Shown here: positions 2,074 through 34,905 of the stretch, one piece after another | Position numbering within the stretch: the stretch's first letter is position 1 | Layout: each line of letters begins with the position of its first letter | Origin: Bacteroidota bacterium | GTDB taxonomy: Bacteria; Bacteroidota; Bacteroidia; Bacteroidales; F082 | Length of the DNA stretch: 36,215 bases | Reading direction: 5' to 3' | NCBI GenBank assembly: GCA_947505205.1 | Contig: CANNKD010000009.1 | Location: 1-36,215 of the forward strand | Notes under the pieces: model-generated | What the model was told of the DNA's origin: nothing | What the model saw: only the letters and a program-made list of their open reading frames with translations | Databases searched by the model: none | Made by a program: the position numbers and the translations under genes

Positions 2074-3064
2074 ATTCTGATAATTGAATTAATATTTCCT
2101 CAATTTTAATACAAACATATATTTTTGTTTTGATGGTAAGGTGAAATTTCTGATCTATTATTTCAATCTTCAGTTCACATTGCGAGTCATCGCTTTCAAC
2201 AAATCCTTTTCTATCCAATGCATTTCGAAGCCAGATTCCATTAATTCCTTCAGCCTTGATGAAAATTTTCTTTTTGCCTGAAAATGTGTGTGAAAACTTT
2301 CCTTTTTCCGCATCAAAATGCAGTCCTGCCCGCGTAAAATAGCTTTCTATCAAGCCATCAAGCACCAATTGCTCCGGAATGCCCGTTTGAATCGGTTTTC
2401 CTTGCGCGATGAGCCAGAGTCTGTCAGCAGTTTGAAGGACATGATCGAGATCGTGTGAAGAATATAAAATGGTTTTTTGATGTTGTCTGACCAATTTCTG
2501 AAGCAGATGCATCAATTCAATTTTACTTGGATAATCGAGAAAAGCAGCCGGTTCATCCATAAAAATAATGGGTGTATCCTGCGATAATGCCTTAGCAATC
2601 ATTACTTTCTGGCGTTCACCATCACTTAACCGATGAAATAATCGTTCGCTAAAATCAGTCATTCCAACCAATTCAAGACAGCTAAAAATGATTTCTTTGT
2701 CCAAAACGCTGAGTGTTGCCCAGAAACCGGTATAGGGATATCTTCCTGTTGCAACCACATCAAAAACACTGATGTGGTTATCAACGATTTTGTCGGTCGT
2801 AACTATGCTGATGATTTTCGCTAATTCGCCTGCCTGATAATATTGTAACTCCTTCTGCATCAGGAATATCTTTCCTGAAATAGGTTTCAGATTACCCGAA
2901 ATTGACCTTAATAAAGTGGTTTTGCCGGCGCCATTCGGACCCACCAGTGCTGTTAGTTCGCCTGCGTTTAATTGCAGATCAAATACAGGAAACAGTCTTT
3001 TACTTCCGTCTGTTTTCGACGAATATCCTATTTCAAGTTGGTTGCATTGTATCAGGTTTTTCAT
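2057..3064 (-). CDS. ABC transporter ATP-binding protein, FecE/BtuD/FhuC type
   Basis: The ATPase of a type II importer. It has Walker A GPNGAGKTT, signature LSDGERQKV, Walker B IIFMDEP and an H-loop in SSHD. I place the start at the ATG at 3064, giving 335 residues (MKNLIQ...), because it follows the permease stop by one base (TGA-T-ATG). An in-frame GTG at 3076 would add four residues. After the NBD (about 250 residues) comes an extension of about 80 residues containing AEGINGIWLRNALDRKGF, then beta-strand-like segments, which standard FecE or BtuD proteins lack. Known relatives import siderophores, haem or cobalamin; the sequence does not settle which. Confidence 0.9.
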   Translation of the reverse strand: MKNLIQCNQLEIGYSSKTDGSKRLFPVFDLQLNAGELTALVGPNGAGKTTLLRSISGNLKPISGKIFLMQKELQYYQAGELAKIISIVTTDKIVDNHISVFDVVATGRYPYTGFWATLSVLDKEIIFSCLELVGMTDFSERLFHRLSDGERQKVMIAKALSQDTPIIFMDEPAAFLDYPSKIELMHLLQKLVRQHQKTILYSSHDLDHVLQTADRLWLIAQGKPIQTGIPEQLVLDGLIESYFTRAGLHFDAEKGKFSHTFSGKKKIFIKAEGINGIWLRNALDRKGFVESDDSQCELKIEIIDQKFHLTIKTKIYVCIKIEEILIQLSEYEKAD

Positions 3065-3065
3065 A

Positions 3066-4118
3066 TCAGGAAGCACTGAAATTACGGTGTTTGAGGATAA
3101 ACCAGATCACAATTGGTGCGCCAATGAGCGATGTGATTGAATTGATGGGCAAGCTGCCATCGAAGCCCGGTAAGCGTGCAACGAGATTACAAAACAACGC
3201 CAAAACACCGCCCAACATCATCGAAGCCGGAAGCAGAATTTTATGATCAGCCGTTTTGAAAATGGAACGCGCCAAATGTGGTACAGCTAATCCAAGAAAT
3301 GCCACCGGACCTGTATAAGCGGTTACAATAGCTGTTAAAAATCCAGTAATTAATACGATATATATTGTTGATATTCTGATATTTAATCCAAGGTTTTCAG
3401 CATAACGTTCACCCAACAACATCAGGTTCAGCGATTTCATCATGAGCAAAGAAAGAAACAAACCAAAAACGATTGTACCAATAAAAAGTGGCAGCTGCGA
3501 ATTACCAACATTCGAAAAACTTCCCAATCCCCAGATTGCAAAAGCATAAATATCTTCCTTTTGACTGAAATATTTCACCAATCCCACCAATGCACCGACA
3601 ACGTAAGCGATCATAATACCAACAATTAACAAGGTGATTGCATTACCTAACCGGCTGCTAATGAATATGATGAGTGATAATACTACCAAAGATCCCAAAA
3701 AAGCTGATAAGGTCAAGCCGATATGCCCAAACCAATCTGCTCCGGCAAAAGCTTCACTTCCAATTCTTCCGGTGAAAAACATCAACAAAGCAACCCCAAG
3801 ACCAGCTCCCGAACTGATACCAAGAATGGATGGATCAACGAGCGGATTGCGAAATAAAGTTTGCATCATCAATCCGGCAACAGCGAGCGCTGCACCTGCA
3901 AATAAGGCGGTATAAGTCTGTGGAAGCCTGAAGTTCAAAATGATAAGTGTTTCGGTTTGTGAGGTTCCATTTATGTTTCCAATTAAAACCCTGATTACCT
4001 GGTTAAATGGAATAATTACCGAGCCAAAAAAAAGATTCATAAAGAACAGCAAAACCAGAAATCCGGTGATAACACCAAAAATCCATATTTTTCTTACCGG
4101 AACCATTTCGTTTTTCAT
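3066..4118 (-). CDS. FecCD-family iron/corrinoid ABC transporter permease
   Basis: A 350-residue integral membrane protein of the BtuC/FecCD family with about ten hydrophobic segments. The family signature is clear: RLPQTYTALFAGAALAVAGL, then QTLFRNPLVDPSILGISSGA, and near the end GPVAFLGLAVPHLAR, the loop that meets the ATPase, then the conserved PGFDGSLPINSITSLIGAP. A homodimer would form the pore. The start overlaps the stop of the binding-protein gene by four bases (ATGA) and the stop lies one base before the ATPase ATG, so all three subunits are probably made together. The 350-residue length is normal. Confidence 0.92.
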   Translation of the reverse strand: MKNEMVPVRKIWIFGVITGFLVLLFFMNLFFGSVIIPFNQVIRVLIGNINGTSQTETLIILNFRLPQTYTALFAGAALAVAGLMMQTLFRNPLVDPSILGISSGAGLGVALLMFFTGRIGSEAFAGADWFGHIGLTLSAFLGSLVVLSLIIFISSRLGNAITLLIVGIMIAYVVGALVGLVKYFSQKEDIYAFAIWGLGSFSNVGNSQLPLFIGTIVFGLFLSLLMMKSLNLMLLGERYAENLGLNIRISTIYIVLITGFLTAIVTAYTGPVAFLGLAVPHLARSIFKTADHKILLPASMMLGGVLALFCNLVARLPGFDGSLPINSITSLIGAPIVIWFILKHRNFSAS

Positions 4119-9434: not shown

Positions 9435-11465
9435 ATGGATTTCAAATTAGTCTCTGATTTCAAACCAACAGGCGATCAGCCTGAGGCAATCAAACAATTG
9501 GTTGAAGGCTTATTGCGTGGCGATAAGGCTCAGACGCTGCTTGGCGTTACCGGATCGGGAAAAACGTTTACCGTTGCCAATGTACTCGCACAAGTTCAAC
9601 GACCTGCATTGGTTTTGAGTCACAATAAAACGCTCGCAGCCCAACTCTATGGCGAGTTTAAACAGTTCTTCCCTGAGAATGCCGTTGAATATTTCGTTTC
9701 TTATTACGATTATTACCAGCCGGAAGCTTTCATTCCAACAACAAATACTTATATTGAAAAGGATCTTTCGATTAATGATGAAATTGAGAAACTGAGGTTA
9801 AGTACAACATCTTCCCTATTATCCGGAAGACGTGATATTATTGTTGTTTCCTCAGTTTCATGTATTTACGGAATCGGGAATCCGGATGATTTTAACAACA
9901 ATGTCATTCATCTCGAAAGTGGCCAATTAGTCAGCCGGCAATTGTTGCTGCAATCGTTGGTGAATTCCCTTTATAGTCGCACCGATATTGAGCTTACACG
10001 TGGAAAATTCAGGGTGAAAGGTGACACACTTGATGTTTTTCCGGCTTACACCGATTTTGCTTACCGGATTCAATTCTTTGGAGATGAAATAGAAGCACTC
10101 GAAAGTTTCGATCCGATTTGTGGACGCAGGTTTGAGACACTTCAACGGTTAACGATATTTCCTGCAAATATCTTTGTAACCTCTCAGGATAAAATGAAAA
10201 GTTCTGTCATCGATATCCAGGATGATCTTTTCAGACAGGTTGCCTATTATAAGGAAATAGGTAAATATGAAGAGGCCAAAAGGCTTGAAGACCGTGTTAC
10301 TTATGATATTGAGATGATGCGCGAACTTGGTTATTGTAGCGGCATCGAGAATTATTCACGCTATTTTGACGGAAGAAACCCCGGTACACGACCTTTTTGT
10401 CTGCTTGATTTTTTTCCGAATGATTACATTACTATTATCGATGAAAGTCATGTTACCATTCCGCAAATCAGGGCAATGTATGGTGGCGATCGGTCGCGCA
10501 AACAAACGCTTGTTGAATATGGTTTCAGATTACCATCAGCGCTGGATAATCGGCCATTGAAATTTGATGAGTTTGAGGCACTTACCGATGATGTACTTTT
10601 TGTGAGCGCCACACCTGGAGATTATGAATTACAAAAGACTGATGGCGTGTATGTTGAACAGGTAATCCGTCCGACTGGATTGCTTGATCCATTGATTGAG
10701 GTTCGACCAAGCTTCAACCAAATTGATGATTTGCTCGATGAGATATCCAAAACTGTTGCAGCAGGATTCAGGGTTTTGGTGACTACCTTAACCAAAAGAA
10801 TGGCGGAAGAATTGGATAAATATCTGGCGAAACTGAACATCAAAAGCAGATATATCCATTCAGATGTTGACACCCTTGATCGCGTGGAGATTATGCGGGG
10901 CTTGCGATTGGGCGAGTTTGATGTGCTGGTTGGCGTAAACCTTTTGCGCGAAGGATTGGATCTTCCGGAAGTAAGTCTTGTTGCTATTTTGGACGCCGAC
11001 AAAGAAGGATTTTTACGTTCAGAAAGGTCATTAACCCAAACAGCAGGTCGCGCAGCTCGAAATGCTGAAAGTAAGGTGATCATGTATGCCGATAAAATGA
11101 CAGTCTCGATGCAGAAAACCATTGATGAAACCCTACGCAGACGTATTAAACAGATTGCCTACAACGAAAAGCATGGCATTAAGCCTACCACCATTGTTAA
11201 ATCGACCAAATCAATCATGGGACAGACTTCGGTAGTTGATTATATTGGTAAAGAATTGAAATATAATACGGATGAAAAAATCATTTTGGCTGCAGATCCT
11301 GTCATTCAATATATGACCATTGAAGCAATGCAAAAAATGATATTAAAAACACGTAAAACAATGGAAGAAGCCGTTAAAGAGCTTGATTTTATTGAAGCTG
11401 CACGTTGCCGAGATGAACTTTTTGCCCTTGAGAAATTGATCGCAGAGAAAAAATTAAATAAATAG
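9435..11465 (+). CDS. uvrB: Excinuclease ABC subunit B
   Basis: The 676-residue UvrB damage-verification helicase of nucleotide excision repair. Walker A is GVTGSGKTFT (near residue 38-47) and the damage-clamping beta-hairpin region appears as YYDYYQPEAFIP. DESHVTIPQI is the Walker B box, and GVNLLREGLDLPEV and QTAGRAARN are helicase motifs V and VI. The C-terminal UVR domain (EEAVKELDFIEAARCRDEL), which contacts UvrC, is present. Length and all motifs are normal. uvrA and uvrC are not in the window. Good ATG start, no Shine-Dalgarno, as is usual here. Confidence 0.98.
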   Translation: MDFKLVSDFKPTGDQPEAIKQLVEGLLRGDKAQTLLGVTGSGKTFTVANVLAQVQRPALVLSHNKTLAAQLYGEFKQFFPENAVEYFVSYYDYYQPEAFIPTTNTYIEKDLSINDEIEKLRLSTTSSLLSGRRDIIVVSSVSCIYGIGNPDDFNNNVIHLESGQLVSRQLLLQSLVNSLYSRTDIELTRGKFRVKGDTLDVFPAYTDFAYRIQFFGDEIEALESFDPICGRRFETLQRLTIFPANIFVTSQDKMKSSVIDIQDDLFRQVAYYKEIGKYEEAKRLEDRVTYDIEMMRELGYCSGIENYSRYFDGRNPGTRPFCLLDFFPNDYITIIDESHVTIPQIRAMYGGDRSRKQTLVEYGFRLPSALDNRPLKFDEFEALTDDVLFVSATPGDYELQKTDGVYVEQVIRPTGLLDPLIEVRPSFNQIDDLLDEISKTVAAGFRVLVTTLTKRMAEELDKYLAKLNIKSRYIHSDVDTLDRVEIMRGLRLGEFDVLVGVNLLREGLDLPEVSLVAILDADKEGFLRSERSLTQTAGRAARNAESKVIMYADKMTVSMQKTIDETLRRRIKQIAYNEKHGIKPTTIVKSTKSIMGQTSVVDYIGKELKYNTDEKIILAADPVIQYMTIEAMQKMILKTRKTMEEAVKELDFIEAARCRDELFALEKLIAEKKLNK

Positions 11466-11466
11466 C

Positions 11467-11489
11467 ACAGGCGGGATTCTGTTTTTTTT
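11467..11489 (+). terminator. Weak terminator candidate after uvrB
   Basis: ACAG (11467-11470) can pair with CTGT (11479-11482) directly before a T-run. The stem is only four pairs, so termination would be partial at best. Confidence 0.28.
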
Positions 11490-11634
11490 ACAGTTTTCTC
11501 TCTTCACGTTTTGTATTGTTATCAATCAAATAGCAATTTACACAACTGATATACTGTCAGTTAACTAAATTATTATAGAAATATTTCCAAATTGAAAAAC
11601 CGTTTCAAGGATATAATTAAATCAACAATTGAAA

Positions 11635-11667
11635 GAAGTTATTAACAATCGGAATGTAAATAACTTC
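11635..11667. promoter_or_regulatory. 33-bp imperfect palindrome, candidate operator of the EPS locus
   Basis: GAAGTTATTAACAATC (11635-11650) and GAATGTAAATAACTTC (11652-11667) are reverse complements at 14 of 16 positions around the central base 11651. The palindrome ends three bases before the -7 box TATCTTTG and covers where a -33 element should be; that promoter lacks a recognisable TTG there. A third half-site, GAAGTTAA, lies just downstream (11681-11688). The layout suits a dimeric DNA-binding regulator. Function is inferred. Confidence 0.55.
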
Positions 11668-11670
11668 CCA

Positions 11671-11678
11671 TATCTTTG
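11671..11678 (+). promoter_or_regulatory. -7 box of the main EPS promoter
   Basis: TATCTTTG matches TAnnTTTG exactly. Transcription would start near 11685, about 100 bases before the first receiver gene. No -33 TTG is present at the normal distance; the palindrome occupies that place, so activation by a bound protein is plausible. Confidence 0.6.
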
Positions 11679-11708
11679 TAGAAGTTAAGCGATTATTAAT
11701 TATTTTTG
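11675..11708 (+). promoter_or_regulatory. Second overlapping promoter candidate
   Basis: TTTG at 11675-11678 (part of the first -7 box) could act as -33 for a second exact -7 box, TATTTTTG at 11701-11708, with 22 bases between. The start would be near 11715. Only one of the two overlapping promoters could be used at a time. Confidence 0.35.
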
Positions 11709-11785
11709 CTTTATGTAGTATAAAACTCTGAATCCGGAATAGTAATGTAAACTAAATATAAAACCTAATAAATTCGAATTAGTAC

Positions 11786-12157
11786 ATGAAAAAGAAAATA
11801 TTGATTATTGATGACGAGTTAAGTATCAGGTTGTTACTGGAGAACTTCTTGGGAAAAACCTATGATGTGGTCACCAAAAATGACGGTATGGAAGGTTTGA
11901 AATGGATGGAAGGCGGCAATATGCCTGATTTAATCGTTGCTGATATTCAGATGCCCAATCTGGATGGTTACGAGTTTATAAAGAACGTTCGTGCGAGTGG
12001 TTTTTTCATTGATATCCCTATGATCATGCTTTCGGGTATCGAAAGCAGTCAGGAAAAGGTTAAATGTTTGAAGTTGGGGGCGAATGATTATATGATCAAG
12101 CCATTTAACCCTGAAGAGCTCTCGATTAGAATTGAGATTTTATTAGCTCGTAAATAA
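11786..12157 (+). CDS. Stand-alone response regulator receiver domain
   Basis: A 123-residue CheY-like protein consisting of one receiver domain without an output domain. The phosphorylation site is complete: acidic pair Asp9-Asp10, phospho-acceptor Asp53 in VADIQMP, switch Ser83 in MLSG, and Lys105 in IKPF. It would be phosphorylated by a histidine kinase and act by protein contact. It is the first gene of the EPS locus and ends 9 bases before the pseudo-receiver/priming transferase gene. An obvious partner kinase is the hybrid kinase encoded at the far end of the locus; that pairing is inference. Confidence 0.93.
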   Translation: MKKKILIIDDELSIRLLLENFLGKTYDVVTKNDGMEGLKWMEGGNMPDLIVADIQMPNLDGYEFIKNVRASGFFIDIPMIMLSGIESSQEKVKCLKLGANDYMIKPFNPEELSIRIEILLARK

Positions 12158-12166
12158 GAATATCCG

Positions 12167-13354
12167 ATGGAAGAAACTGTCAATTCAAAGCTTAAGGTTA
12201 TATACATTGGAGGGTTTTTAAATTACATTGAGCAATTTAAAAATAGAGCCGATTTGTTTGATTTGACTGTAGTTGAAAATGGTTTGGAAGCCATGAATAA
12301 ACTTCAGCCCGATGATTCCTTTCAAGGAATTATTAGCGAAGTATTTCTTCCAGGCATGAATGGATTTGACATTTCAAAGATGCTAAAATCAAAAGACATT
12401 CATTATAAAACTCCTTTTATACTTGTTTCACCCGAAAAAAATTCAATAAATAAGGCAAGAGCTTTTAACTCTGATATAAGCGATTTTTATGATGGCACTT
12501 TAGAGGTTGAACACGTTTATAACAGGATTGGATTTATCAACAGATTCAACGCATATTATTCCGAATCGCACGAATCCGGAAATAAAATTCGTGAATATAA
12601 AATTCCATGGGATAAAAGATTATTTGATATTTTGGTTTCGTCAACAGCCCTGTTGGCACTTTCACCTCTTGTTTTATTGGTAATGCTTGCCATCAGGATG
12701 GAATCAAAAGGAAAGGTGTATTATACTTCAAAAAGGGTTGGTACAGGTTACAAAATATTTTTATTTTACAAACTTCGGTCGATGCGTGTAGGTGCTGATG
12801 CTTCTTTGAAAGACCTGAAGCATCTTAACCAATATGATGTTAGCGCAAAAACAACCTCAGATGAACAGGTCTGTCCACGGTGTGCTGATTTACCGCAAGG
12901 TGAAACCTGTTCACAGGAACTTTACTCCGAAGGTAAGAAAGTTTGTGAATATTGGTATTTTGAAACAAAAAAGAACAGTGTATCTTCTACATTCATCAAA
13001 ATTAAAGACGATCCACGCATAACACGCGTTGGAAAATTCATCCGTAACACAAGTATTGATGAGCTTCCACAGCTACTTAATGTATTAAAAGGCGATATGT
13101 CGATTGTTGGAAACCGGCCACTGCCCTTGTATGAAGCAGAGATGCTTACGTCGGATGATTGGAGTGAAAGATTCATGGGGCCGGCAGGGATAACAGGTCT
13201 TTGGCAGGTTGAACAAAGAGGTAAAAAAGGAAAAATGTCGGAAGAAGAACGTAAAGCACTTGATAACCAATATGCGAAAACGTATTCTTTTTGGGGTGAT
13301 ATTAAATTGATTTTGAGGACAATACCTGCACTATTTCAAAAGGAAAATGTGTAA
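12167..13354 (+). CDS. Pseudo-receiver fused to EPS-priming sugar-phosphate transferase
   Basis: A 395-residue two-part protein. Residues about 8-125 resemble a receiver domain (GIISEVFLPGMNGFDISKML), but the key residues are changed: the acidic pair reads Gly-Gly (15-16), the phospho-Asp is Glu58, and the conserved Lys is missing (DFYDGT, 106-111). Residues about 145-395 are a WcaJ/WbaP-type polyprenyl-phosphate sugar-1-phosphate transferase: membrane anchor 153-177, KLRSMR (202-207), catalytic Asp298-Glu299 in SIDELPQLLNVLKGDMSIVG, and GITGLWQV. This enzyme class puts the first sugar phosphate on undecaprenyl phosphate. A Cys-containing insertion (Cys236, 239, 248, 260) lies between the basic motif and the catalytic dyad. 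It follows the active receiver gene by 9 bases. The sugar is unknown. Confidence 0.9.
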   Translation: MEETVNSKLKVIYIGGFLNYIEQFKNRADLFDLTVVENGLEAMNKLQPDDSFQGIISEVFLPGMNGFDISKMLKSKDIHYKTPFILVSPEKNSINKARAFNSDISDFYDGTLEVEHVYNRIGFINRFNAYYSESHESGNKIREYKIPWDKRLFDILVSSTALLALSPLVLLVMLAIRMESKGKVYYTSKRVGTGYKIFLFYKLRSMRVGADASLKDLKHLNQYDVSAKTTSDEQVCPRCADLPQGETCSQELYSEGKKVCEYWYFETKKNSVSSTFIKIKDDPRITRVGKFIRNTSIDELPQLLNVLKGDMSIVGNRPLPLYEAEMLTSDDWSERFMGPAGITGLWQVEQRGKKGKMSEEERKALDNQYAKTYSFWGDIKLILRTIPALFQKENV

Positions 13355-13414
13355 TGACAGCTATTAAATAATATTAAATTAAACAACTTGAAGTTTAAAA
13401 CTATCAAACAAAAT

Positions 13415-14209
13415 ATGAGTAAACATAGCGCACATAATCATTTTTTAATTCTATGTTTTCGGTTTGTTATTTTTGCTTTTGTATTTGCAATTGGCAATAA
13501 ATCATTTGCTCAAATTTATGCAAATGATGAGTCAAAGTTGTTTAACCCATTGACCGACGATATCACCAAACGTCTTCCTGCCTTACGTATCTTAATTGAT
13601 TCTGCTGTAGCCAACTCTCCGACTGTGCGCTATGAAGAACTAAAAGCAGATTATTATTATTATGAACAGAAATCTCAGGAACGCTATTGGTTAGAGCATT
13701 TCAGTTTTAATGTTGATGCAAATTTTGGTAAATGGAATTTTCATGATCGTGATATTGTGAATCGTGGCCCAGATTGGTATTATACTGAGTCTGTACGCGA
13801 TAATTTCGCCGTTGGATTTTATATTCGCTTTCCATTCGCATCACTCGTTGATAGAAGAAACAGAATCAATAAACAGAAAAAATGGATCGAACTTTCTTAC
13901 GTTCAACGTGATATCAACCGGAAATATGTTGAGAAAGAAGTCGTTGAAGCATATAATATGATGATTCAATGGCAAAATTATATAAGAATTTATAATGATT
14001 ATCAGAAGTTTACGATGATTCAGATGCAGATGGCTCAGAATCAGTTCCTAAATGGAGAAATAGGACCTGCTGAATATACACGTTTGAAGGAAATTCAGAC
14101 TCGTGGGGCCATTGAATACCAGCAAGCAATTGCGGAATTTAGTAAAAATTACCAGCTTCTGGAAATTATTACGGAGATCAACTTCAACCTAATCAACGTA
14201 TTAAGATAG
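13415..14209 (+). CDS. Half-length TolC-like outer membrane protein
   Basis: 264 residues from the ATG at 13415; a TTG at 13388 would add nine. I prefer the ATG because it gives a compact signal peptide (MSKHSAHNHF, a hydrophobic core, cleavage near SFAQ). The mature protein follows the TolC/OEP pattern: PALRILIDSAVANSPTVRYE at the start, a strand-rich part with aromatic residues (FGKWNFHDRD, VGFYIRFPF), then long helices with Gln/Asn-rich heptads and QFLNGEIGPAEYTRLKE. TolC proteins have two such repeats and over 400 residues; this has only one. It sits directly before the Wzz-like gene, where an outer-membrane export component would be expected; no Wza gene is in the locus. Confidence 0.7.
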   Translation: MSKHSAHNHFLILCFRFVIFAFVFAIGNKSFAQIYANDESKLFNPLTDDITKRLPALRILIDSAVANSPTVRYEELKADYYYYEQKSQERYWLEHFSFNVDANFGKWNFHDRDIVNRGPDWYYTESVRDNFAVGFYIRFPFASLVDRRNRINKQKKWIELSYVQRDINRKYVEKEVVEAYNMMIQWQNYIRIYNDYQKFTMIQMQMAQNQFLNGEIGPAEYTRLKEIQTRGAIEYQQAIAEFSKNYQLLEIITEINFNLINVLR

Positions 14210-14221
14210 AAAAGCAATACC

Positions 14222-17038
14222 ATGGATATAGCACAGTTCATACGGGTTTTTCAAAAAAATCTCATCCTTCTGATAACAATTCCATTGTTATTGGCGATTG
14301 TTGTTTTTGCACTTACACGAAATCAGGGAAAGGTATATGAATCTGAAACTATAATATATACAGGTATCACCACTGGTTATTCTATTGAATCAACAGCGCA
14401 AAAACCAACCGACTTCTTTAGTGTAAGTGCACAATTTGATAACTTAATCAACTTAATAAATTCGAGGCAGACGATTGTTGAATCTGGCATTATGCTTCTG
14501 GCTCAGGATCTTTCACTTGAAAATTATAATACACAATATATTTCTAACGAAAATCTTGATAAACTTAGAAAATTCGTTCCTAAGTACATTAAAGATATGG
14601 TAGTGAAAAACGGTAAAGCTGGTATCGAACGTGAAAAAGAAGAACAGATTAGAAATCTGGAAAAAGAAATCAGAGGCCTTGAAAAAGAAATAAACAAAAA
14701 GAAGACCAGAGCTGTTCAAGAATTTGTTAATCAAGGTTCCACAACAAATTCGTTACCACAGCAAGGCGTTTCTAAGGACGATCTTCCAGTTGAGGAAACA
14801 GTTTCAAATATTGTTAGTGATTCAAAAATACATACTGTCCAAAAAGGAGAAACAATATTATCAATTGCACAACATTATGGTATTTCACTAAGTAAATTAC
14901 GTGAATTGAATGATTTTAATTCACAGGAATTAAAAGTTGGGCAAAAAGTTTTGTTAGCAGGTGAATCAATGGGGTCCTATCTCGATGGTGGTTATGCTGA
15001 AAAAGAAGTTAGTTTGTACGAAGGAGATAATAATGCACAGGATAAAAACGATATTATTAATCAACCTGCAGTTGAAAATTATTCATTTTCGAGCGAAGAA
15101 GGACAAGGAAGTATTTTAGCGGAAAACAGATTGTCAACTTCAGTCGAAAAAGATCCAATTATTCCAAATGGTGTGTTGGAAAGCGATTTTTTAAAAACAG
15201 TTCAAAATATTACGAATTACTACAATTCAAGTGATACCAATTTTATTTATGGTCTCCTGCATTATGGTGAAAGCAAACATTACAGTATCAAGGCATTGAA
15301 AACATTGCAAATATATCGCATCAATAACAGTGATCTCGTTAGATTGGTTTATACTTCGGATGATCCTGGTATTTGTCAGGAAACGCTTAAAATTATTGCG
15401 CATGTTTTTGTAAAGAATTATAAATTATTGAAAGAAAACCAAACCGATTTGGTTGTGGCTTATTTCAGAAGACAAGTTGACTCGGCGGATAATCAATTAC
15501 AACAAGCCGAAGACCGATTATTGAAATTTAATAAAAAGAACAATATCATTAACTATGCTGAGCAAACTAAATATATAGCTGCTCAGAAAGAAGATCTGGA
15601 TAAATATTATCAGGATGAACAAGTGCGCATGGCACAAGGTTCTGCGGCCTTAAAGGAGCTTGAGACAAAACTTACCCGTAAGGACAGTATTTATTTGAAA
15701 AGTGATATTATCAACCAACGGAGAAAGCAATATGCCGATGTGACAGAGAAAATTCTCATCAATGAATTAGCTGAAGATTACGATCAACGAATTGGTGACG
15801 AAATTGCATTGCTCAGAAAAAAATCAGATGACTTAAGAGATGAAATAAAGCTTTATGTTGATCAGTTGTATTTGTATGGTCATTCAACCCAGGGAGTTCC
15901 TATCGCAACATTGCTCGATGAGTGGTTAAAAAATGCGCTTTCTTACGAAGAAGCAAAAGCGAGTTTGGTTGTTTTAGCACGACGTAAGATGGATTTTGTC
16001 CGAACTTACCAACGATTCGCTCCCTTAGGTGCTATGCTAAAACGTATTGAACGTGAGATTACTGTGGCAGAACAATCGTATCTTGAACTCCTTCGTAGTT
16101 TGAATCTGGCGTTGATGCGTCAGCAAAACCTTCAAATGGCGACAAATATAAAAATTGTCGATCCACCATATTTTCCGTTGTCAGCAAACCCGTCCAAAGC
16201 AAAATATCTGGTTGTTGCGGCTGCAATGATTGGATTTATTCTAATCGCCTTCATTATTCTTGTACTTGAGTATTTTGATGCTTCAATGAAGAGTCCGGAT
16301 CGGGCAGTTGAACGTGTTGGATTGAAACTTGCAGGTGCTTTTCCGTATATTGGATCAAACTCCAAACTTCAGGATATGGTTTTCATTAGCAATCGTTTAA
16401 TTGAAATGATCGTTCAAAACCTGAAGCTAAAATTGCTTCACCAATCAATATATCCTGCTCAGAAACCATATATTATCTTGATATTCAGTACACAGGATGA
16501 AGTTGGAAAATCATTCATCACTACCCGAATTGCCAATAAACTTCGTACCTATGGTGAGAAGGTACTTGTGTTAAACCACAAAGATGAAGTTGATCTTGAA
16601 GAAACTGACAATAATTTGAATTATAACTATTCAATCAACGATAACTTTGCCGAAATAAGCAACATCAAAGAACTTATTAACAGCAATGTATTGCGTCGTG
16701 AAAATTATAGCTACGATTATATATTTATCGAAATTCCATCCATCATTTTCCATCGTTATCCAATTGATCTAATGCATCAGGTTGATGTTTCATTATTGGT
16801 GTTAAAAGCTTCCAGTCAATGGAATAAAGCTGATATTTCCTCACTTGAAATCATCAAAGACTTATCGAAAGAATCACCAATGATTATTCTGAATGAAGCA
16901 GAAGACTTTGCCATTTCTGAGATCATATCAGGAATAAAGGTGAAGAAATCTTCTGAAACCTGGCAACGAATAAAAAATGTTTTGTTCTTCCCTACCCGTT
17001 TAAGAATTCAGGTAAAAGAAAATCAAGTTGAATCGTGA
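14222..17038 (+). CDS. Wzz-type polysaccharide co-polymerase with LysM insertion and degenerate kinase-like domain
   Basis: A 938-residue inner-membrane protein. TM1 is 13-31 and TM2 is about 662-682; the part between faces the periplasm. It begins like a Wzz domain (to about 130), then has a charged coiled coil (133-165), a LysM module (about 203-246: HTVQKGETILSIAQHYG ... LKVGQKVLL), a low-complexity linker, and a second long coiled-coil region (410-640) ending in the proline-containing DPPYFPLSANPSK before TM2. The cytosolic end resembles the BY-kinase/ParA fold but is decayed: P-loop STQDEVGKSF (756-765) keeps GKS, Walker A' reads VLVLNHKDE, Walker B reads FIEIP, and there is no C-terminal tyrosine cluster. 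Its role is probably chain-length control and export. Its end overlaps the flippase start by four bases. Confidence 0.85.
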   Translation: MDIAQFIRVFQKNLILLITIPLLLAIVVFALTRNQGKVYESETIIYTGITTGYSIESTAQKPTDFFSVSAQFDNLINLINSRQTIVESGIMLLAQDLSLENYNTQYISNENLDKLRKFVPKYIKDMVVKNGKAGIEREKEEQIRNLEKEIRGLEKEINKKKTRAVQEFVNQGSTTNSLPQQGVSKDDLPVEETVSNIVSDSKIHTVQKGETILSIAQHYGISLSKLRELNDFNSQELKVGQKVLLAGESMGSYLDGGYAEKEVSLYEGDNNAQDKNDIINQPAVENYSFSSEEGQGSILAENRLSTSVEKDPIIPNGVLESDFLKTVQNITNYYNSSDTNFIYGLLHYGESKHYSIKALKTLQIYRINNSDLVRLVYTSDDPGICQETLKIIAHVFVKNYKLLKENQTDLVVAYFRRQVDSADNQLQQAEDRLLKFNKKNNIINYAEQTKYIAAQKEDLDKYYQDEQVRMAQGSAALKELETKLTRKDSIYLKSDIINQRRKQYADVTEKILINELAEDYDQRIGDEIALLRKKSDDLRDEIKLYVDQLYLYGHSTQGVPIATLLDEWLKNALSYEEAKASLVVLARRKMDFVRTYQRFAPLGAMLKRIEREITVAEQSYLELLRSLNLALMRQQNLQMATNIKIVDPPYFPLSANPSKAKYLVVAAAMIGFILIAFIILVLEYFDASMKSPDRAVERVGLKLAGAFPYIGSNSKLQDMVFISNRLIEMIVQNLKLKLLHQSIYPAQKPYIILIFSTQDEVGKSFITTRIANKLRTYGEKVLVLNHKDEVDLEETDNNLNYNYSINDNFAEISNIKELINSNVLRRENYSYDYIFIEIPSIIFHRYPIDLMHQVDVSLLVLKASSQWNKADISSLEIIKDLSKESPMIILNEAEDFAISEIISGIKVKKSSETWQRIKNVLFFPTRLRIQVKENQVES

Positions 17039-31901: not shown

Positions 31902-34346
31902 ATGAAATTGAGGAATCGACTATTATTGTTAGGTTTTATCTCCTTTTTCCGGATTGGTGTATTTGCCCAATCAACTGATTTAATTAATTTCAGAAATTCG
32001 TTCATTAACGATTATCATAATGATAATCAATTATTTATAAATATTTTTGATCATTTGAATGCCGATTCTCTATCACGGAGAATTCTGCAAGCTTCACTTC
32101 AACTTGATGATTTTCGACTAAATCATGATACGCTGAATCAAATTGCAGCTGGCGAAAAACTTGGTCATTTATTTTGGTATATTGATCAAAAGCAACAGGC
32201 CTTTACCTATTTCAACGATGCACTTCAACTCGCTGAAAATAAACTCAAAAGTGAATCATATTTTGAATTATTGACTAAAACAATTTATATTTCTACTTAT
32301 TTGATGCATGATGATTATACCTTGTCATCGTTAAAAAAACAATTGATTATCGCTGAAAAAACCAATAATAAACCATTGATAATGAACATTTTTAATGGAA
32401 TTATCAGGATTTATCTCGCCAAAGGCAGTATTGATAAAGCAGGTATCTATTATCACTCGTTGCAGGAATTTATGGGTAAAAATCCTGATTATAAACTAAC
32501 CATTAAAGATCAACTTGATTCGTGGAAATATATCCATTTAAGTTCGACAATTCAATCGCCTGATTTCTTTTCAGATAATTTGTATGCTGAAATTACACAA
32601 TCGGGTTCTGCAACTGATATGTTGGCATTTTCAATCTATCATTTCGATACGGATGGGAATACCGGTTTTGAAATAAAAGCATTGGAAAGATTGATTAATC
32701 GATTTTCATCACCACAGGATGAGATGGCTTTTTGCGCGTTAAATGAATTAATATCAGCATATTATAAAAATACTGATCCTGGAAAATCTTTTGAATTTTC
32801 GTTAAATTCCATCAGATCTTTTGAAATATCAAACGAAAAGATATCTCAGAAAACACAAGAGGTTCTTCGATTACTACAGTCAGCAAACTTTGCTAATAAA
32901 ATTATTGATGATCACAAATCAAGGGTTGCAGGTGGAATTGGAACTGAAATTTTCATTGGAATTCTACTTTTTTCTTTATTAAGTTTGTTTGTATTTTTGC
33001 TTGCTAAACTTAAAAAATTCGGCGTACAAAGTACAATTGAGAAAGCAAATGCGGAAATTCTATTCAAAAACTTGACAACAAATATTCAGCAAAGCGCGAT
33101 TGAACTCGATGTATTGGTGCATGAAAGAGAACAGGAAATCCAATCTGAATTGATTGAATATTCCAAACTTGATACCGAACTCAAAGAAGCGTTAAAAAAG
33201 GCGGAAGAGGCAAATTATCTGAAGAACTCATTTCTATCCAATATGAGTCACGAAATACGTACGCCGCTCAACGGTATTTTAAACTATTCAAATTTATTAG
33301 AGGTCGAGCTTGCGATTATTGATAAACCTGAACTTTATGAGTACGCCAATTCTATTGAAAAGAGCGGTGAAAAATTACTTCATTTACTCAATAATATCAT
33401 TGATATAAGCAGGCTTGAGGCAAATGATCTTGAATTAAAGATCGAGCCATGCGATATTATTTCAGTTGTTGATTCAGTGATTAATAATCTTCAACTTAAA
33501 GCAAAAGAAAAAGGTTTAAATATTATCAGGGATTTCTCTGAGATTCCTTTTGTAATGGCAGATATATCAACCATTAGCCGTGTGTTTAGTGAATTGATTG
33601 ACAATGCAATAAGATATACAGAAAAAGGATTTATAAAATTGAGTATCAAAAAAATACCTAAAGTAAACCTGATCGAAATTAACATTCTCGATACAGGAAT
33701 TGGTATCGATAAATCCTATTTACCTCAAATTTTTGAAGCATTTCGTCACGACAGTATTGGTTATACACGCCAATATCAAGGTACAGGTTTAGGATTACCA
33801 CTCGCTCAAAGAATGACCGTGCGCATGGGTGGTGAATTTATTGTTGAATCAGAGAAAACTGTCGGAACAACCATTAGCATAAGACTAAACATAAGTGAAA
33901 TAAATAAAACTGCACCCGAACAGCGTAAAATTGAAGTGCCGGTTTGGGAAAGAAAGAGTTTAAAAGATTTAAGAATATTATTGGTTGAAGATGATAAATC
34001 GAATATGTTGGTTATTTCAAAACTAATTGATGCAGAAACTACTGTAGCTAAAGCATTTGACGGCGATGAAGCCATAAAACTGGTAGTCCAAAATATGAAT
34101 GATGATGTTGTTTTTGACTTGATGTTATTTGATATTAATCTACCCGCCCCATGGGATGGCGTAAAGTTGATGCAGTACATCAAAAATAAATATTCTCAAT
34201 ATCAGAATATACCATTTATTGCTCAGACTGCCTATGCCATGATTGGTGATAGGGAGAGATTTATTGATGCAGGTTTTAATGAATACCTCTCAAAACCAAT
34301 TAAAAAAGTTGATCTCGTTAATGCGATTCATAAAGTAATAAAATAA
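31902..34346 (+). CDS. Hybrid histidine kinase with periplasmic TPR-like sensor and C-terminal receiver
   Basis: 814 residues. Signal peptide 1-22 (cleavage near VFAQ), an all-helical periplasmic sensor of about 320 residues with TPR-like repeats (clearest 85-190), TM 347-368, a coiled coil (about 376-440), HisKA with phospho-His450 in SNMSHEIRTPLNG, an HATPase_c domain (N568 in SELIDNA, DTGIGI 597-602, GTGLGL 627-632), and a receiver at 689-814 with acceptor Asp744 in LFDINLP and Lys798 in SKPI. Complete and probably active. The order suggests a signal sensed in the periplasm, passed by phosphorelay to a separate phosphotransfer protein or receiver. It is the last gene of the tight EPS run; the single receivers at both ends of the locus are natural partners, by inference. 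Confidence 0.93.
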   Translation: MKLRNRLLLLGFISFFRIGVFAQSTDLINFRNSFINDYHNDNQLFINIFDHLNADSLSRRILQASLQLDDFRLNHDTLNQIAAGEKLGHLFWYIDQKQQAFTYFNDALQLAENKLKSESYFELLTKTIYISTYLMHDDYTLSSLKKQLIIAEKTNNKPLIMNIFNGIIRIYLAKGSIDKAGIYYHSLQEFMGKNPDYKLTIKDQLDSWKYIHLSSTIQSPDFFSDNLYAEITQSGSATDMLAFSIYHFDTDGNTGFEIKALERLINRFSSPQDEMAFCALNELISAYYKNTDPGKSFEFSLNSIRSFEISNEKISQKTQEVLRLLQSANFANKIIDDHKSRVAGGIGTEIFIGILLFSLLSLFVFLLAKLKKFGVQSTIEKANAEILFKNLTTNIQQSAIELDVLVHEREQEIQSELIEYSKLDTELKEALKKAEEANYLKNSFLSNMSHEIRTPLNGILNYSNLLEVELAIIDKPELYEYANSIEKSGEKLLHLLNNIIDISRLEANDLELKIEPCDIISVVDSVINNLQLKAKEKGLNIIRDFSEIPFVMADISTISRVFSELIDNAIRYTEKGFIKLSIKKIPKVNLIEINILDTGIGIDKSYLPQIFEAFRHDSIGYTRQYQGTGLGLPLAQRMTVRMGGEFIVESEKTVGTTISIRLNISEINKTAPEQRKIEVPVWERKSLKDLRILLVEDDKSNMLVISKLIDAETTVAKAFDGDEAIKLVVQNMNDDVVFDLMLFDINLPAPWDGVKLMQYIKNKYSQYQNIPFIAQTAYAMIGDRERFIDAGFNEYLSKPIKKVDLVNAIHKVIK

Positions 34347-34358
34347 TTTTTTCACAAA

Positions 34359-34391
34359 TTGATACTTGATATGAATGAAATTGTATATTTG
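34359..34391 (+). promoter_or_regulatory. Promoter candidate for the last receiver gene
   Basis: TTG (34359-34361) is followed after 22 bases by TATATTTG (34384-34391), an exact -7 match. Transcription would start near 34398, giving a leader of about 110 bases before the GTG at 34510. It lies just after the hybrid kinase stop, so the receiver can be expressed apart from the operon. Confidence 0.5.
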
Positions 34392-34493
34392 TTTGAGAAA
34401 AGGGAGGCCTTAGATTATTTATCTGATGAGTATTTTATAAATCATAATCAGAACTAAAGAAAACGAGTCTAAACAATGAAGTTTAAATAGAAT

Positions 34494-34500
34494 AAGGAGG
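34494..34500 (+). promoter_or_regulatory. Strong Shine-Dalgarno sequence before the last receiver
   Basis: AAGGAGG stands 9 bases before the GTG at 34510. I find no comparable sequence at the other starts in this window. It fixes the start at the GTG, since no ATG lies between it and the first receiver strand. Confidence 0.7.
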
Positions 34501-34509
34501 ATTCAAATA

Positions 34510-34905
34510 GTGAGTGAAAGCCTACCTAGCGCAGGATTAAAAGTACTTCTGATTGAAGACAATGAACTGAACCAAAAATTTGCTTTTGCGGTTTTAAAAA
34601 GATTTGGACATACTGCCGATATTGCAGAAAATGGTCGTATTGGCTGTGATTTGTTTCTTGCTAATAAATATGATTTAATATTAATGGATATTCAGATGCC
34701 AATCATGAATGGCATTGAAGCATCGATAGAAATAAGAAGACTGGAAAAAGAAAGAAATTTAGGTCATATACCGATCATAGCTGTTACAGCATTTGCTATG
34801 GAACACGACCGAAGAAACTGTATGGATGCTGGAATGGATGAATTTTTGACCAAACCATACAAGCCAGCTGATCTGGAACATAAAATCAAAACAGTATTAA
34901 AGTAA
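34510..34905 (+). CDS. Stand-alone response regulator receiver domain
   Basis: A 131-residue receiver with no output domain. Acidic pair Glu16-Asp17, phospho-acceptor Asp60 in LMDIQMP, switch Thr93 in AVTAFA, and Lys115 in LTKPY. The sequence resembles the receiver domains of hybrid kinases more than CheY (EDNELNQKFAFAVLKRFGH), so it may take phosphate from the upstream hybrid kinase. It has its own promoter candidate, a GTG start and an unusually strong Shine-Dalgarno, and is followed by a strong terminator at 34935-34969. Confidence 0.93.
   Translation: MSESLPSAGLKVLLIEDNELNQKFAFAVLKRFGHTADIAENGRIGCDLFLANKYDLILMDIQMPIMNGIEASIEIRRLEKERNLGHIPIIAVTAFAMEHDRRNCMDAGMDEFLTKPYKPADLEHKIKTVLK

Follow-up and report, generated by a model that had tools for sequence, protein, structure and literature searches.

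A stand-alone receiver and a transferase with a dead receiver domain form a possible two-protein switch in an exopolysaccharide pathway of Bacteroidota

Genes of the locus

The window, i.e. the whole stretch of 36,215 nucleotides that was analysed, contains a stand-alone receiver (SDRR) at the head of a set of exopolysaccharide (EPS) genes, followed by a gene that fuses a receiver-like domain to a phosphoglycosyl transferase (PGT). The features of the locus are collected in Table 1. PGTs commit the shared and limiting undecaprenyl phosphate to a pathway, and the step that they catalyse is the one considered here.

Table 1. Features of the SDRR-PGT locus, with positions in the window
Feature	Coordinates	Strand	Basis or remark
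Stand-alone receiver (SDRR), 123 aa, intact site, heads the EPS genes directly 5' of the PGT	11786..12157	+	Pfam, alignment
Dead receiver - small monotopic PGT, 395 aa	12167..13354	+	ORF translation, Pfam
Predicted dead receiver domain, residues 9-138, (beta-alpha)5, long last helix	12191..12580	+	Structure model and structural matches
Gly15-Gly16 replacing the acidic pair	12209..12214	+	First position Gly in 78/90
Glu58 at the phospho-Asp position	12338..12340	+	E 60, D 12, other 18 of 90
Asp106, alpha4-beta5-alpha5 face, presumed match of PhoB D101	12482..12484	+	D in 85/90
Arg120, presumed match of PhoB R115	12524..12526	+	R in 81/90
Bac_transf core, residues 150-390, hydrophobic helix near 155-178	12614..13336	+	Pfam, hydropathy
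Four-Cys insert (C236, C239, C248, C260) in the transferase core	12872..12946	+	Residues 236-260
Catalytic pair Asp298-Glu299	13058..13063	+	Invariant in 122/122 related PGTs
Hybrid of TPR, histidine kinase and receiver, distal end of the EPS genes	31902..34346	+	TPR match weak, below cut-off
Second stand-alone receiver, after the kinase	34510..34905	+	Matched in 5/5 genomes with that stretch fetched

The product of the fused gene is a small monotopic phosphoglycosyl transferase (PF02397), as it has a Bac_transf core (Pfam, E 3.9e-56, 189.9 bits against a cut-off of 27) and the catalytic Asp-Glu pair. Its N-terminal part matches Response_reg at residues 20-107 (Pfam, E 1e-7, 32.6 bits against a cut-off of 30.2). 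A Pfam search of the PGT gave no match to PF13727 up to E 1, and hydropathy analysis found no TM-like stretch before residue 150, the 19-residue maximum being 0.86 up to residue 150 compared with 2.34 at residues 155-173. Assignment to the large monotopic PGTs of the WbaP/EpsZ type, which are recognised by an N-terminal four-TM bundle together with PF13727, was rejected because the protein has neither. That the N-domain could be the PF13727 DUF of the large PGTs was likewise rejected, since Pfam gives no such match and the structural matches, in lists of limited length, are of the receiver type instead. In the full-length model the transferase part is poor (mean pLDDT of 62.3 with a 25-row alignment), and our structural conclusions are limited to the N-domain.

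The catalytic core is homologous to that of WbaP of Salmonella (PDB match with E 3.3e-32, best stretch 274-393), and, as the accessible text of PMC10942596 describes for WbaP, a cytoplasmic domain precedes the core. Unlike WbaP, which has the PF13727 DUF and a four-helix TM bundle according to the same text (PMC10942596), the PGT of the window is without either. The insert in the transferase core has all four cysteines in 98 of the 122 related PGTs and none in the other 24, with no partial case (0/122); an all-or-none pattern is what a metal site would give, and the insert is probably a site of this kind.

The SDRR matches Response_reg with an E-value of 6.7e-25 (Pfam), and D9, D10, D53, S83 and K105 are all present. 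It ends 9 bases before the start codon of the PGT, so that the active receiver that the original prediction placed at this spacing is there with its site intact. We called a receiver phosphorylatable if the acidic pair, the phospho-Asp, the Ser/Thr and the Lys were all present, and by this definition the site is complete in 82 of 86 partner SDRRs. The genome of the window contains no close second copy of the SDRR, the next best match being 34% identical (E 5e-16). The models that score best with the SDRR are those of RpaB and PhoB, both below their full-protein cut-offs. A scan of 11400-13450 for promoters and terminators gave no excess over shuffled sequences (10 against a mean of 9.0 and 1 against 1.1, respectively).

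Located 3' of the PGT are the OEP, Wzc-like, Wzx, Wzy and beta-helix genes, whose order is unchanged and whose spacing hardly varies across all 15 sampled family genomes. As far as the listed genes go, the EPS genes at 13388-34905 show a degree of conservation that seems unusual in a polysaccharide locus. The Wzc-like chain-length protein (938 aa, 14222-17038) has an internal LysM domain at residues 204-244. Signalling genes lie at both flanks of the EPS genes, with the SDRR at the head and the kinase and second receiver at 31902-34905. Of the 15 family genomes, 13 gave a match to the hybrid kinase, in most cases to its kinase part only, up to the edge of the fetched stretch, and this protein is a plausible candidate phosphodonor for the SDRR.

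The receiver-like domain of the transferase

The original prediction described a receiver-like domain, fused to the transferase, in which the acidic pair is replaced by Gly15-Gly16 and the phospho-Asp by Glu58, and from which the conserved Lys is missing; Pfam, the alignment and the structure model are all in agreement with this description. The remaining switch positions in the alignment are Ser88 and, at the Lys position, Gly110. When residues 1-140 were modelled alone with a 23-row alignment (the window and 22 relatives), the result was a (beta-alpha)5 structure with a mean pLDDT of 89.6, whose last helix extends to about residue 138. The best PDB match of this model in Foldseek was CheY (3chy, probability 1.00, TM 0.72/0.78), and the top match in VIA-align was 2zay (Z 17.0, 1.9 A over 121 residues), with 2vuh, the HupR receiver with an engineered D55E substitution, at Z 16.8. 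By their titles, nearly all of the best 50 matches from each tool are response regulators or proteins that contain a receiver. The N-domain of the PGT is therefore predicted to adopt the receiver fold, and the outcome that would have refuted the original prediction, a fold of another kind, did not occur.

Loss of the phosphorylation site is common to the fused proteins. We collected 90 distinct N-domains from searches of family, order, phylum and genome contigs, leaving out two Firmicutes PGTs of about 30% identity (L062, L063) and five other PGTs or fragments from the window's own genome (L003-L007). None of the 90, the window's copy included, has a complete site, so that the second refuting outcome named with the original prediction, many homologues with an intact Asp/Lys site, did not occur either. 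Glu replaces the phospho-Asp in 60. Isolated decay of the window's copy is thus ruled out by a dead site shared among the 90 rows, and the dead receiver is, judging from the aligned sequences, an old and retained family trait rather than the product of local decay.

That Glu itself is needed as a mimic of phosphorylation, as also proposed originally, is not supported. Among the 62 rows assigned to the window's order, 55 have Glu at the phospho-Asp position, compared with 5 of 28 others (these 28 include six named records without a kinship code, and the tree places one of the six, L054, within the window's family). The position can also be taken by Asp, Asn, Gln, Ser, Tyr and other residues, and in three proteins from the window's own family it is Asp, with the acidic pair and the Lys lost. 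As Glu is patchy and the site is incomplete in all 90 rows, the trait in common is the loss of phosphorylation and not Glu as such; Glu58 is at best a doubtful phosphomimic. Two proteins from another class of the phylum (L102 and L106) retain one acidic residue and the Lys while the site is already Glu. This pattern would fit an early origin of Glu, on a part of the tree where the branching is unsure.

Outside a few columns the dead domain is variable, with 17-63% identity to the window among 22 rows. Two fused copies elsewhere carry in-frame stops, one in G019 and two in G292. A profile of the dead domain scored the 86 partner SDRRs at a median of 83.6 bits and the window's SDRR at 71.8 bits, against 63.6 bits or less for 20 other receiver domains of the genome; the alignment behind the profile included the SDRRs, and this tilts the scores towards them. 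Such scores are what would be expected if the dead receiver arose from an SDRR, and with the test biased in that direction they give only a hint of this origin.

Variation in the dead domain is lowest at D106 and R120, whose counterparts in PhoB of E. coli are D101 and R115. The Asp-Arg pair is intact in 79 of 90 dead domains, compared with 62 of 86 SDRRs. At the other salt-bridge positions of the alpha4-beta5-alpha5 face (R91 and E111 in PhoB numbering), dead domains have Lys or Arg at 91 in 44 of 90 rows and Glu at 111 in 5 of 90. Most dead domains and most SDRRs resemble OmpR/PhoB receivers in having a pair of the D101/R115 type. Unlike these receivers, the dead partner is without a phosphorylation site and mostly without a pair of the R91-E111 type, and unlike OmpR/PhoB proteins, neither the SDRR nor the PGT has a DNA-binding domain.

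The accessible text of PMC4511772 reports that R115D is damaging in PhoB and that D101R gives a partial rescue. According to that of PMC2586830, two charged residues, which are not named there, are absolutely conserved at the centre of the OmpR/PhoB interface and crucial for dimerisation of PhoB. Since the chemistry is lost and the Asp-Arg pair is kept, the dead domain resembles an interaction module, and the pair may also stabilise the fold within one chain. At 24 loci the SDRR is without its own pair, and at 19 of these the dead domain still has it, which favours dimerisation between PGTs through this face, perhaps with the SDRR bound elsewhere, or a role within the chain, over a symmetric SDRR-PGT heterodimer. 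A symmetric heterodimer formed through the Asp-Arg pairs of both proteins is weakened as a candidate by these loci.

Pairing of the stand-alone receiver with the fused transferase

Among the matches listed for 173 genomes of the family, the fused PGT and the SDRR occur in the same 51 genomes, and neither occurs in the other 122, where it should be borne in mind that fused-PGT matches were listed to about E 1e-17, that a strongly diverged fused protein could be absent from them, and that in draft genomes one missing contig would remove SDRR and PGT together. For this count the SDRR was taken as present at E <= 1e-30, with up to 25 candidates per genome scored, and the 51 fused genomes were picked by hand as those in which the match starts at query residue 10 or before. 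Six genera hold both carriers and genomes without either gene. In 50 of the 51 genomes the two genes are adjacent on the same strand, and the gap between the matched stretches is 12-56 nt (median of 30.5); in the 51st (G016) the PGT match begins at base 69 of the contig, i.e. at a contig end.

The neighbourhood of the wider set of related PGTs points in the same direction. We regarded a PGT as fused if its core was preceded by about 100 residues or more, and as having an SDRR neighbour if a receiver ORF lay on the same strand no more than 400 bases upstream; ORFs were read from stop to stop, and some begin before the true start. Enough upstream DNA was available for 118 of the 122 related PGTs (L010, L070 and L071, all fused, and the unfused L134 had too little), and here an SDRR adjoins 86 of 87 fused compared with 4 of 31 unfused PGTs, the latter drawn from a set picked by hand from the matches. 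The one fused exception (L095, PGT at 2828-3862) has upstream a histidine kinase gene (HATPase_c 3.6e-22, HisKA 7.1e-7) and no SDRR. None of the 19 family paralogues without the receiver domain that have enough upstream DNA (of the 20 that were collected, L124-L143) has an SDRR beside it; the twentieth, L134, has none in its 305 upstream bases, and the paralogue of this kind in the window's own genome has no SDRR neighbour. The four unfused PGTs with an SDRR directly upstream (L152, L153, L146 and L154) come from other classes of the phylum and could represent a forerunner of the fused form or a later loss from it. Because they adjoin an SDRR, the SDRR may contact the catalytic core even where there is no dead receiver.

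As the genomes are related and not independent, Fisher tests on the pairing overstate the evidence. On the PGT tree there are 4 changes of each trait, and a sign test would need more than the 2 to 4 independent contrasts that the tree provides. The adjacency holds across families, in other classes, in PGTs with and without the Cys insert, and where identity of the PGT to that of the window is about 40-50%. One PGT labelled Beijerinckiaceae (L060) groups with a Chitinophagaceae PGT on the tree, and this may perhaps reflect a binning error of the assembly.

A proposed switch at the committed step

We lean towards the reading, which draws on analogy, that the SDRR and the PGT with the dead receiver would together make up a switch for the committed step in one conserved EPS pathway of the Wzx/Wzy type, in which the phosphorylated SDRR would activate the PGT. 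That the upstream receiver is coupled directly to the transferase, as originally predicted, is now our best reading. The sequences themselves show the fused architecture, the dead site, the pairing and joint inheritance of the two genes and the conservation of the catalytic residues; we infer the contact between the two proteins, its direction (activation), the kinase and the interface. A histidine kinase, for which the hybrid at the end of the EPS genes is a candidate, would phosphorylate the SDRR, and the phospho-SDRR would then bind the PGT and activate it post-translationally, on the pattern of EpsW and EpsZ. In this scheme the role of platform would fall to the dead receiver, a domain that keeps the receiver fold and the Asp-Arg pair and in which phosphorylation is impossible. 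It could dock the SDRR through its alpha4-beta5-alpha5 face, or it could hold a PGT dimer that is recognised by the SDRR. In a narrower form, on which we are doubtful, a live and a dead receiver together would gate the enzyme through an alpha4-beta5-alpha5 assembly with the phospho-SDRR, the dead one being a duplicate of the SDRR and the module being widespread in Bacteroidota. If this were true, phosphate on one protein would switch catalysis in another.

The analogy comes from Myxococcus xanthus. According to the accessible text of PMC12802240 (mBio 2025), the SDRR EpsW, when phosphorylated, is near enough to the initiating PGT EpsZ in vivo to label it. It also raises the activity of EpsZ in a heterologous host, and the published model has it stabilise the EpsZ dimer. 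As in that system, a single-domain response regulator is paired here with an initiating PGT in a Wzx/Wzy EPS pathway, and the mode that we propose by analogy is also post-translational activation by contact (PMC12802240, accessible text). Unlike EpsZ, which is a large monoPGT with a TM bundle and a DUF, the enzyme of the window has a small core and a fused dead receiver; the SDRR scores 66 bits with the EpsW model NF041866, whose cut-off is 200, and the PGT 154.5 bits with the EpsZ model NF041877, whose cut-off is 800 (NCBIfam). The fusion itself is not new, since the accessible discussion of PMC12802240 already states, from an earlier sequence survey, that a receiver domain can be part of a small monoPGT. 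Words starting with 'Bacteroid' do not occur in the main text of that paper, and in the open-access literature, as far as its accessible text goes, we found no description in Bacteroidota of the dead site, the SDRR neighbour or the retained interface pair.

One published case of gating, EpsW/EpsZ, comes from myxobacteria and involves a large monoPGT. If the proposed switch is real, the same logic would operate across Bacteroidota in a different class of PGT, with the dead receiver as a built-in adaptor. An orphan stand-alone receiver would gain a defined enzyme target, and E58, D106 and R120 of the PGT together with D53 of the SDRR would make the interface directly testable.

Other explanations need to be weighed against the proposed switch. 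The dead receiver could be a constitutive module for homodimerisation of the PGT, in the role of the DUF of WbaP, with the SDRR acting on the core or elsewhere. We consider this unlikely but worth serious attention, as the 19 loci at which the dead domain keeps a pair that the SDRR has lost, and the four unfused PGTs paired with an SDRR, are in its favour, and so is the observation, in the accessible text of PMC10942596, that the contacts of the WbaP dimer are mostly in the cytoplasmic DUF. However, such a module alone leaves unexplained that the fusion and the SDRR are found in exactly the same 51 genomes; moreover, the published EpsW model, as described in the accessible text of PMC12802240, contacts both the DUF and the catalytic domain, so both readings may hold. 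It seems improbable that the SDRR controls another target, such as a phosphate sink or a different regulator, and shares no more than a transcript with the PGT. The conserved core of the EPS operon around the SDRR would allow its adjacency to be passive linkage, and the operon ends with a kinase and a second SDRR, but the neighbour is kept at 86 of 87 fused loci across families, classes, forms of the PGT and identities of about 40-50%, while the family paralogues without the receiver domain have no SDRR.

We give slightly less weight still to the idea that Glu58 locks the N-domain in an active-like state, so that the PGT would be constitutive and the SDRR would compete or reset it. A phosphomimic normally requires the conserved Lys and the Ser/Thr switch, and the Lys is absent from the window's N-domain. 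The prevalence of Glu within the window's order, and the D55E HupR receiver among the close structural matches, agree with such a lock; the diversity of residues at the site elsewhere, with Asp recurring where the acidic pair or the Lys is missing, speaks against it. Very improbable, finally, is that the N-domain is a decaying remnant without function: its phosphorylation residues are gone, it evolves fast, and the in-frame stops in G019 and G292 would suit decay, but the fused frame is kept in 90 rows from many families with D106 and R120 near-invariant, and the window's copy is open, with an N-domain that folds well in the model.
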